Source: Eubacteriales bacterium
GTDB lineage: Bacteria > Bacillota > Clostridia > Lachnospirales > Lachnospiraceae
NCBI GenBank assembly: GCA_030539395.1
Contig: JAUNSC010000030.1
Location: 1-42,506 of the forward strand
Length of the DNA: 42,506 nt
Direction: 5' to 3'
How positions within the stretch are numbered: the first letter of the stretch is position 1; each line of letters opens with the position of its first letter. Below, piece after piece: positions 25,293 through 27,513 of the stretch. A program made the position numbers and the translations under genes. A model generated the notes under the pieces. It did not search any database, was not told the DNA's origin, and worked only from the letters and a program-made list of their open reading frames with translations.

Positions 25293-25328
25293 TAACCGTG
25301 TAATTTTTTGTTACGCGGTTAAATTTTT
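25293..25328 (+). terminator. Intrinsic terminator after the 3D-domain gene
   Basis: TAACCGTGTAA 25293-25303 pairs with TTACGCGGTTA 25311-25321 (one G-U pair), 7-nt T-rich loop, followed by a T-run at 25324-25328. Confidence 0.85.
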
Positions 25329-25348
25329 CATAAAACTACTAGACTATT

Positions 25349-25376
25349 TTGACGTTTTATGCGAAAATATTAACAA
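25349..25376 (+). promoter_or_regulatory. Candidate promoter of the NifU-like/GGGtGRT operon
   Basis: A good -35 TTGACG at 25349-25354 is followed after 16 nt by a poor -10 TAACAA at 25371-25376. The weak -10 suggests activator dependence or a wrong assignment. Leader to the ATG at 25444 would be about 60 nt. Confidence 0.35.
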
Positions 25377-25443
25377 GGTACGTGCGGGTATCAGTATGCT
25401 CGGAGTACATAAAAAGACATTAATTATTGAAAGGAGTCTTAAA

Positions 25444-26136
25444 ATGATTTATTCACGCGAAGTAGAAGAAATGTGTCCAGTTGCACAGGGCGTTCATCAT
25501 GGTGCTGCGCCTATTCCTGAAGAAGCAAAATGGGTACAGGCAAAAGAAGTTAAGGATATTTCCGGTTTTACACATGGTGTAGGCTGGTGTGCTCCTCAGC
25601 AGGGTGCATGTAAGCTGTCCCTGAACGTTAAGGAAGGTATCATCCAGGAAGCTCTGGTTGAGACAATCGGATGTTCAGGTATGACTCATTCTGCAGCTAT
25701 GGCTTCTGAGATTCTTCCGGGACTGACTGTTATGGAAGCATTGAATACAGACCTTGTATGTGATGCCATTAACACTGCTATGAGAGAATTGTTCCTTCAG
25801 ATTGTTTACGGACGTTCTCAGTCTGCATTTTCCGAGGATGGACTTGCTGTAGGAGCTGGTCTGGAAGACCTTGGAAAAGGACTTCGTTCTCAGGTTGGTA
25901 CTATGTATGGAACACTGAAAAAAGGACCTCGTTACCTGGAAATGGCAGAAGGCTATGTTACCGGTATTGCGCTTGACGAGGATAACGAAATTATTGGTTA
26001 TCAGTTCGTCAGCCTTGGAAAGATGACTGATTTCATCAAAAAAGGCGATGATCCTAATACTGCATGGGAAAAGGCAAAAGGCCAGTATGGTCGTGTAGCA
26101 GATGCTGTTAAGATTATTGACCCGAGAAAAGAATAA
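25444..26136 (+). CDS. NifU/IscU-like iron-sulfur scaffold family protein
   Basis: 230 residues from ATG 25444, which follows GAAAGGAGTCTT; the frame is open upstream to 25288 but that part overlaps the terminator and has no ribosome binding site. The central region resembles a NifU N-terminal/IscU fold: five cysteines at C11, C49, C56, C77 and C106, with IGCSGMTHSAAMASEIL around C77 and LNTDLVCDAINTAM around C106 matching the second and third IscU ligand positions. Extra N-terminal (~45 residues) and C-terminal (~80 residues, GYVTGIALDEDNEIIGYQFV) segments are not in IscU. No IscS/NifS or SufBCD gene is nearby; the only partner is the GGGtGRT gene 19 nt downstream, so this looks like a dedicated scaffold or carrier. 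Actual cluster binding is unproven. Confidence 0.8.
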   Translation: MIYSREVEEMCPVAQGVHHGAAPIPEEAKWVQAKEVKDISGFTHGVGWCAPQQGACKLSLNVKEGIIQEALVETIGCSGMTHSAAMASEILPGLTVMEALNTDLVCDAINTAMRELFLQIVYGRSQSAFSEDGLAVGAGLEDLGKGLRSQVGTMYGTLKKGPRYLEMAEGYVTGIALDEDNEIIGYQFVSLGKMTDFIKKGDDPNTAWEKAKGQYGRVADAVKIIDPRKE

Positions 26137-26155
26137 TTAGAGGAGGTAACAGGAA

Positions 26156-27166
26156 ATGGCTTTATTTGAATCATATGAGAGACGAATTGACAAAATCAAT
26201 TCTGTTTTAAATAGTTATGGAATTGCTTCCATCGAAGAAGCTGAGAAAATTACAAAAGATGCTGGTTTAAATGTTTATGACCAGATCAAAGGAATTCAGC
26301 CGATCTGTTTTGAAAATGCATGTTGGGCATACATTGTAGGTGCAGCAATCGCAATTAAAAAAGACTGCAGGAGAGCAGCAGATGCAGCAGCAGCAATCGG
26401 TGAAGGATTACAGGCTTTCTGTATCCCGGGATCTGTAGCTGATACACGTAAAGTAGGTCTTGGCCATGGTAATCTGGGAAAAATGCTTCTGGAAGAAGAG
26501 ACAGAGTGTTTCGCATTCCTGGCAGGACATGAGTCTTTCGCAGCAGCAGAAGGTGCTATCGGTATTGCAGAAAAAGCAAACAAGGTTCGTCAGAAACCGC
26601 TTCGCGTTATCCTGAATGGCCTTGGAAAAGATGCTGCACAGATTATTTCTCGTATCAACGGCTTTACATATGTTGAGACAGAGTATGATCCTTACACCAA
26701 TGAAGTAAAAGAAGTTTTCCGTAAATCTTATTCAGAAGGACTTCGTTCAAAAGTTAACTGCTACGGCGCTAACAGCGTTCCGGAAGGTGTTGCAATCATG
26801 TGGAAAGAAGGCGTTGACGTTTCTATCACAGGTAACTCAACAAACCCGACACGTTTCCAGCATCCGGTAGCAGGTACATACAAGAAAGAATGCAATGAGA
26901 AAGGCAAAAAATACTTCTCAGTTGCTTCCGGCGGCGGTACAGGACGTACTCTTCATCCGGATAACATGGCAGCAGGTCCGGCTTCCTATGGTATGACAGA
27001 TACACTGGGACGTATGCACTCTGATGCACAGTTTGCAGGTTCTTCTTCAGTACCGGCTCACGTAGAAATGATGGGTCTGATCGGTGCAGGAAACAACCCG
27101 ATGGTTGGTATGACCGTTGCAGTTGCAGTTGCTGTACAGGAAGCAGCTGACGCTGGCAAGTTCTAA
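26156..27166 (+). CDS. GGGtGRT family protein of unknown function
   Basis: 336-residue cytoplasmic protein named for its motif GGGTGRT, here at residues 259-265 in ASGGGTGRTLHPDNMAAG. It has seven Cys (51, 56, 71, 89, 118, 202, 246) and conserved-looking glycine-rich segments: CIPGSVADTRKVGLGHGNLGKML, FLAGHESFAAAEGAIGIAEKA, ITGNSTNPTRFQHPVAG and MMGLIGAGNNPMVGMTVAVAVAVQ. No known catalytic signature is recognised; the glycine loops could bind nucleotide or another phosphate ligand. It begins 19 nt after the NifU-like gene with a strong AGGAGGT and ends at a strong terminator, making a two-gene operon. The family's biochemical role is, to my knowledge, undescribed. Confidence 0.85.
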   Translation: MALFESYERRIDKINSVLNSYGIASIEEAEKITKDAGLNVYDQIKGIQPICFENACWAYIVGAAIAIKKDCRRAADAAAAIGEGLQAFCIPGSVADTRKVGLGHGNLGKMLLEEETECFAFLAGHESFAAAEGAIGIAEKANKVRQKPLRVILNGLGKDAAQIISRINGFTYVETEYDPYTNEVKEVFRKSYSEGLRSKVNCYGANSVPEGVAIMWKEGVDVSITGNSTNPTRFQHPVAGTYKKECNEKGKKYFSVASGGGTGRTLHPDNMAAGPASYGMTDTLGRMHSDAQFAGSSSVPAHVEMMGLIGAGNNPMVGMTVAVAVAVQEAADAGKF

Positions 27167-27194: not shown

Positions 27195-27229
27195 GGAGCT
27201 TTTGGGAGTTTCCCGAAGGCTCCTTTTTT
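27195..27229 (+). terminator. Intrinsic terminator after the GGGtGRT gene
   Basis: 13-nt arms 27195-27207 and 27211-27223 pair throughout (two G-U pairs) around a 3-nt loop, followed by six T residues 27224-27229. Confidence 0.9.
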
Positions 27230-27366: not shown

Positions 27367-27513
27367 ATGCCTCTTATAATGCCAATTAAAGAATTACGCA
27401 ATACAACCGAGATTTCCGACCTTGCACATAAAGCGCAGGAACTGTTAAACGGAGCCGAAGCAATAGACGCGGAGGTGGTTTTTGCGGAATTGGAGAAAAA
27501 GCATTTTGGATAA
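27367..27513 (+). pseudogene. Internally deleted Phd/YefM-type antitoxin remnant
   Basis: A 48-codon reading frame with good AAAGGAG ribosome binding site begins MPLIMPIKELRNTTEISDLAHK, the usual N-terminus of clostridial Phd/YefM antitoxins, but the following DNA-binding/toxin-binding core (about 40 residues in intact relatives) is missing. It jumps to DAEVVFAELEKKHFG, which looks like an antitoxin C-terminus. The frame itself is intact, so a short peptide may still be made, but toxin neutralisation is unlikely. It is followed immediately by a toxin fragment. Confidence 0.6.

Follow-up and report, generated by a model that had tools for sequence, protein, structure and literature searches.

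A conserved gene pair encoding a NifU/IscU-like protein and a GGGtGRT family protein in Lachnospiraceae is a probable iron-dependent enolase

We analyzed a 42,506-nt stretch of DNA (hereafter, the window) from Eubacteriales bacterium, a member of the Lachnospiraceae (assembly GCA_030539395.1, contig JAUNSC010000030.1, positions 1 to 42,506 of the forward strand), and focused on two adjacent genes in it that encode a NifU/IscU-like protein and a GGGtGRT family protein, referred to here as A and B. The source genome comprises 3.37 Mb in 77 contigs, and its best named relatives are Lachnospiraceae. An initial annotation of the window had placed the two genes on the + strand with a spacing of 19 nt, and this arrangement was confirmed. 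The terminators that it had described on both sides were found as terminator-like hairpins, and in agreement with it no IscS, SufS, or other Suf gene was recognized among the window open reading frames of at least 140 aa, as judged by eye and not by profile. The features of the locus are as follows.

25293–25321, + strand: terminator-like hairpin just 3′ of the preceding gene, isolating the pair (hairpin search)
25340–25369, + strand: promoter-like motif common to the regions upstream of A (TAGACT, 17 nt, GAAAAT; TG one base 5′ of the second box)
25430–25436, + strand: AAAGGAG, resembling a ribosome-binding site, of A (read from the sequence)
25444–26136, + strand: gene A, NifU/IscU-like subunit, 230 aa, with invariant C49, C77, and C106, and also H44
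26140–26146, + strand: GAGGAGG, resembling a ribosome-binding site, of B (read from the sequence)
26156–27166, + strand: gene B, GGGtGRT family protein (PF14057), 336 aa, with no invariant Cys
27195–27223, + strand: terminator-like hairpin with a T run, closing the pair (hairpin search)

The 9-mer GAAAGGAGT was present in 56 of the 101 regions upstream of A. Removal of redundant regions left 85, in which a motif search gave an extended −10 promoter motif that scored at least 18 bits in 54; its log-likelihood was 694, versus 94–102 in three shuffled sets, which had fewer starts. A GACTATTTTGTC-like core was seen in some loci and could overlap an operator. Five terminator-like sites were found on 3 kb, compared with 2.5±1.6 in shuffles, and Rfam gave nothing in the window at the gathering threshold.

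B matched PF14057 with 628.3 bits over residues 4–330 (curated cut-off, 27 bits), and the same match was obtained for all 13 B proteins of one alignment. In contrast, A scored below every curated IscU/NifU cut-off (PF01592, 19.4 against 22 bits; TIGR01999, 19.1 against 192.4 bits; TIGR03419, 23.4 against 187.9 bits). Nor does A belong to SufU, as TIGR01994 gave 15.6 against 92.5 bits and no CGD motif was found in 13 aligned A proteins. Neither A nor B matched an enolase profile in Pfam or NCBIfam at E values up to 1, and none of the 13 B proteins matched an enolase profile in Pfam.

The initial annotation had emphasized the five Cys of A and the seven of B. All of them are present, but invariance is confined to C49, C77, and C106 in A (92 of 92 distinct proteins), and none of the seven in B is invariant (99 distinct proteins; partial and stop-containing copies were left out of both counts). 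The conserved part of B is instead extensive, with 118 of its 336 columns invariant, including invariant His, Asp, and Asn. B consists of a helical N-terminal part followed by a Rossmann-like α/β part. In a low-confidence predicted model of A, the IscU-like fold spans approximately residues 38–134; because it covers these residues alone, the N- and C-terminal extensions beyond IscU that were noted initially look real. In an alignment to IscU, C77 corresponds to the second conserved Cys (C63 in E. coli IscU) and C106 probably to the third (C106 in E. coli IscU), and C49 sits three residues before the usual position. In 13 aligned A proteins, APQQGA or a close variant takes the place of the PxCGD loop with its Asp. 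A pattern search found the LPPVK chaperone motif in none of the 92 A proteins, compared with 17 of 19 IscU/SufU proteins.

A is thus like the IscU/NifU scaffolds (PF01592, TIGR01999) in the fold of residues ∼38–134 and in its three conserved Cys, and unlike them in its sub-threshold scores, its lack of PxCGD and LPPVK, the shift of C49, its long extensions, and its obligatory partner B. It shares with SufU (TIGR01994) the IscU-like fold without LPPVK, but it has neither the CGD motif nor a SufU score, and its tie to sufS is one of position only, in Collinsella. With none of its seven Cys invariant, B is an improbable recipient of a cluster with Cys ligands. This result, together with the absence of PxCGD and LPPVK from A, argues against the initial proposal, in which A would serve as a dedicated Fe-S carrier or scaffold for the maturation of a client metalloenzyme, B. 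The idea of an unrecognized metalloenzyme is supported by our analysis, but the scaffold-and-client relation is probably wrong, and we regard A as a scaffold for B as highly improbable. Two other structural relationships were tried and rejected: a second, degenerate IscU repeat toward the C terminus of A was plausible by eye but reached a profile comparison probability of 1.9%, and the matches of B to phosphofructokinase, MurG, and UDP-GlcNAc epimerase folds were weak and tied.

We determined the distribution of A and B in genomes of the phylum and of the family. In an even sample of 199 phylum genomes, B was found in 10 and full-length A in the same 10. The A profile matched 87 other genomes of this sample, with the match confined to residues 15–107, and 17 of 18 fetched places with such a partial match encoded IscU/SufU-like proteins. 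Among 150 family genomes, B was present in 122, A in 122, and both in 120; in the genomes with a single gene (A, G216 and G246; B, G234 and G296), that copy was cut within 1–2 bases of a contig end. In 78 of 80 named loci, A lay directly 5′ of B, either complete or truncated at the start of the contig, and the contigs of the remaining two start 41 and 47 bases before B. A was followed by B on one strand in 43 of 44 fetched stretches, some of which came from genomes already counted. Proteins of the B cluster occurred in 46 of 49 long loci and those of the A cluster in 44, whereas the next gene family occurred in 21. The pair is therefore the sole conserved unit of its neighborhood and the pairing is far beyond chance, which bears out the initial description of a dedicated, conserved two-gene unit with no known function. 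The pair was also found in Vibrio, Persicobacter, Parabacteroides, and Collinsella, with 66–78% identity to the window for either protein. The identities of A and B correlated at 0.98 across ten loci, without control for the species tree. B was also found at 60–99% identity in collections of plasmids (10 records) and phages (6 records).

In the full sample of 398 phylum genomes, the B profile matched 60, of which 29 were kept as pair carriers; weak MetK-like matches were dropped. Such matches occurred in 31 further genomes and look like one orthologous protein, and one that was fetched read as MetK by eye. A kinship of B to S-adenosylmethionine synthetase was treated as chance, the matches being weak and partial (residues 31–113; best E value, 1.7e-5). 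Three loci of the pair were of unusual structure. The copy in G490 (L183, 4454–5844) looks broken: the A match ends near residue 148, and B sets in at this point in a different frame, from about residue 14; this genome has two enolase matches. In Parabacteroides (L103, 7800–7991), the annotation places a hydrophobic, membrane-like peptide of 63 aa between the two genes. In Collinsella (L104, 116–8993), the pair lies approximately 2 kb 3′ of a sufCBDSU operon, with a transposase in between.

Gene neighborhoods were covered for every phylum genome with the pair except that of the window (28 of 29), for 16 of the 20 family genomes that carry the pair and lack enolase, for four plasmid records, and for the 80 named loci. 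Among 48 context loci, the order gap-pgk-tpi(-gpmI)-A-B was found in 11 genomes, with all genes on the same strand. Nine of these, with gap-pgk-tpiA-gpmI-A-B, belong to the family f33 (G029, G144, G174, G373, G397, G421, G467, G488, and G510) and represent every f33 genome with the pair in the sample. The gene identities in pgk-tpi-gpmI-A-B-pyk of G397 were confirmed by NCBIfam, gap lying outside the stretch read, and pyk is directly 3′ of the pair in both G174 and G397. The other two genomes belong to the window's own family and have gap-pgk-tpi-gpmI-A-B (G251) and gap-pgk-tpi-A-B (G271). A twelfth locus has pyk alone, 7.7 kb off, and a glycolytic neighbor was seen in only one of the 80 named loci (pyk, 7.7 kb off). 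We compared these loci with 20 control loci from genomes without the pair, which were hand-picked from the top enolase scores and represent 13 families. All 20 have the order gap-pgk-tpi-gpmI-eno; therefore, A-B occupies the position of eno. The pairs of G251 and G271 fall within Lachnospiraceae on the tree and the f33 pairs form their own clade (both supports, 1.0). Because the two groups stand apart, the enolase slot has been taken by A-B at least twice.

The presence of enolase itself was examined with TIGR01060, which was positive in 14 of 14 controls, in 373 of 398 phylum genomes, and in 125 of 150 family genomes, leaving 25 negative genomes in each sample. Four of the 373 positives scored below the family cut-off, including G161 and G193 (very weak, no pair), and were counted as positive; five negatives per sample were first inferred and then confirmed as enolase-negative with a second profile. 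The pair was present in 31 of these 50 enolase-less genomes, which represent seven families: 11 of the phylum sample (G142, G371, G395, G546, G109, G125, G356, G464, G467, G510, and G529) and 20 of the family sample. The second enolase profile, PF00113, had no match in any of the 31, and its one sub-threshold match was in an enolase-less genome without the pair. Twenty-two of the 31 are listed as at least 95% complete, five of them at 100%, and G529 is a single contig. In the phylum sample, enolase was missing in 11 of 29 genomes with the pair versus 14 of 369 without it (Fisher p 1e-7, kinship ignored), and in the high-quality genomes of this sample in 9 of 27 versus 6 of 329 (p 8e-8, the genomes not being independent). 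The family sample alone gave no such association (20 of 122 versus 5 of 28) because nearly all of its members carry the pair. The exchange was also seen between close relatives: in f28, G464 carries the pair but lacks enolase, whereas four others have enolase and no pair, and in f107, G356 and G517 differ in the same way. Fifty of the 80 named loci entered a check of named genomes; no enolase match was found in 6 of the 50 and only a weak match in a seventh, completeness not being given. These enolase-less carriers include Suipraeoptans intestinalis and Butyrivibrio sp. SIG347 (a metagenome-assembled genome).

Glycolysis was otherwise retained in the genomes with the pair. Phosphoglycerate kinase (PGK) was kept in all 31 enolase-less genomes with the pair, compared with 8 of 19 without it. 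In three of these eight (G083, G435, and G482), the contigs break off at or within gpmI, just at the expected place of the following gene, and three more (G113, G221, and G327) are 60–86% complete. The last two, G205 and G274, are fairly complete and have glycolysis but neither enolase nor the pair; they are exceptions to the replacement of enolase by the pair. The simplest reading is that A-B is an enolase that needs iron, since enolase is the sole step of lower glycolysis missing between gpmI and pyk. The same slot and the same losses would be expected if A-B bypassed phosphoenolpyruvate (PEP), for example by converting 2-phosphoglycerate to pyruvate and phosphate in place of enolase plus pyruvate kinase, but the pyk gene directly 3′ of the pair in G174 and G397 argues for PEP as the product, and we give such a bypass only a slight chance. 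A scaffold-and-client relation leaves both the slot and the losses unexplained.

Published data indicate how the pair responds to iron. In the proteome reported for Clostridium pasteurianum (PMC5395762), iron increased B 7.1-fold in the early and 2.2-fold in the late phase and A 2.4–3.7-fold and 1.6–2.9-fold, respectively, whereas enolase was increased without iron (4.1–4.8-fold early, 1.8–4.0-fold late). In the values given there, GapA and TPI showed no rise without iron and flavodoxin rose 14-fold. In the transcriptome reported for Bacteroides thetaiotaomicron (PMC10434189), the pair (BT0173-74) was down 11–12.8-fold without iron; under iron depletion, the row containing eno (BT4570-72) was up 2.0–7.7-fold with P 0.144, and the gpmA locus was up 15.4–23.9-fold. 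According to these published data, A-B falls and enolase rises under iron shortage in two phyla, which resembles the exchange of flavodoxin for ferredoxin reported in PMC10434189. The GGGtGRT protein has further been reported as highly expressed in chicken gut bacteria (PMC11204068) and, in two studies of human metaproteomes (PMC12014591, PMC13041051), as changing in concert with a NifU-like protein. The codon bias of A and B agrees with the reported high expression: among 29 window genes (named by eye), B had the third-lowest effective codon number and the second-highest codon adaptation index (reference: rpsA, pnp, and infB of the same window), beside rpsA, and A ranked sixth and seventh, respectively.

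Abundance and strong iron dependence would also be explained if the pair were an iron-sulfur store or buffer. That function, however, leaves the operon slot and the enolase losses unexplained, and the 118 invariant columns of B with their His, Asp, and Asn look catalytic; we consider it extremely unlikely. Operon position, enolase loss, and iron response alike indicate that A and B form a single enzyme. We therefore propose, with a probability of about 0.86, that A-B is a second enolase, a two-subunit iron-dependent enzyme that forms phosphoenolpyruvate from 2-phosphoglycerate and has no sequence relationship to the Mg-enolase. It resembles the classical enolase (EC 4.2.1.11; TIGR01060, PF00113) in its place in gap-pgk-tpi-gpmI operons and in the proposed reaction, and the classical enzyme is missing from many genomes that carry A-B. 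It differs in having two subunits and no match to enolase profiles, in falling rather than rising without iron, and in a proposed Fe-S cluster instead of two Mg ions.

In a variant of this proposal, A-B is an enolase that contains no Fe-S cluster; the Cys of A would serve to bind zinc or to carry sulfur, and iron would affect the pair through regulation alone. In keeping with the variant, the IscU relative SufU is listed as a Zn-dependent sulfurtransferase. The CGD motif of the zinc site is, however, absent from A; moreover, iron depletion reduced the pair in two phyla while the Mg-enolase rose. We judge the variant to be unlikely, and A is probably the cluster-bearing subunit. In the [4Fe-4S] hydro-lyases of the aconitase and serine dehydratase types, the cluster is held on three Cys and one iron is left open. 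The dehydration of 2-phosphoglycerate would be chemically similar to the reactions of these enzymes, and A offers exactly three invariant Cys. The proposed mode of action, with three Cys and an open iron that binds the leaving hydroxyl, is that of aconitase, two-subunit fumarase, and L-serine dehydratase, several of which also have two subunits. A and B differ from them in having no sequence relation by Pfam or NCBIfam and in the proposed substrate, 2-phosphoglycerate.

We infer the enolase activity, the Fe-S cluster, and the division of labor between A and B, and propose the following mechanism. The IscU-type fold of A, with C49, C77, and C106, would carry a [4Fe-4S] cluster, one iron of which stays accessible to the substrate. 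The invariant, Gly-rich GGGTGRT/His/Asp/Asn region of B would bind the phosphorylated substrate, and B would supply the acid-base groups. Cells with both enzymes would use A-B when iron is plentiful and the Mg-enolase when iron is short, and in some lineages the Mg-enolase would have been lost while A-B remained.

Two divergent pairs, each with approximately 60% identity to the window, have other surroundings. A second pair in G283 (L184/L143) lies beside genes for PrpF, the large and small subunits of an aconitase family enzyme, a thioesterase, and a flavoenzyme, as identified by profiles. The pair in G356 (L179), which belongs to another family than G283, lies beside PrpF-like and aconitase-like genes, as judged by eye. 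The three Cys of A are kept in both, whereas the B proteins share changes such as T262I, H288Y, and Q292T at otherwise invariant sites and are also altered at H267 and N270. Changed invariant sites of B in catabolic operons are as expected of a related hydro-lyase with another substrate. Because these pairs, with altered residues of the GGGTGRT region, sit in PrpF/aconitase-like operons, a wider family of IscU-fold hydro-lyases may exist. We consider it rather likely that A-B is a [4Fe-4S] enolase of a second, structurally unrelated class, in which the IscU-type fold serves as the catalytic cluster subunit and which founds this wider family; A-B would then be the enolase that many anaerobes use when iron is replete, and the sole one in many that lack the classical enzyme.

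The 3′ end of B (26981–27145 in the window; the last ∼50–60 codons) serves elsewhere as the integration site for several tyrosine recombinases. The viral contigs L115–L119 contain only the 3′ end of B followed by an integrase, and one contig contains the end of the B gene (L110) together with a further copy of 292 bp at 91% (L118). A recombinase lies 0.2–1.4 kb 3′ of B in 5 of the 69 named loci that have at least 1.5 kb downstream, and also in L026, which has a shorter flank. Just 3′ of the pair in the window, the start of a small antitoxin-like reading frame was read by eye at 27369–27490.

Enolase catalyzes a nearly universal step in the breakdown of sugars. A 2025 review (PMC12965863) regards the enolases of all domains of life as a single superfamily. 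Enolase-less bacteria have nevertheless been reported: Butyrivibrio proteoclasticus, the substitute of which was described as still unclear in a 2024 review (PMC11187502), Oscillibacter valericigenes (PMC3558957), and Pseudobutyrivibrio xylanivorans (PMC7523725). Approximately half of the sequenced Butyrivibrio and some Prevotella and Lachnospiraceae were reported to lack enolase, and the search for a complementing gene is described there as having given little insight (PMC6118326). GGGtGRT proteins have been reported from Pseudobutyrivibrio ruminis. The pair has been seen before in published data without an assigned function. In the open-access papers that were listed, no link of the GGGtGRT/NifU-like pair to enolase was found. 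A-B is a candidate for the missing enzyme in Butyrivibrio and the other reported cases, which may be how some enolase-less gut bacteria are still able to ferment sugar, and a defined two-gene candidate makes this question testable with one assay. If the proposal is true, an oxygen-labile and possibly fluoride-insensitive enolase activity is predicted, the highly expressed GGGtGRT protein family of unknown role would gain a function, and the glycolysis of abundant gut and rumen bacteria would be tied to iron.
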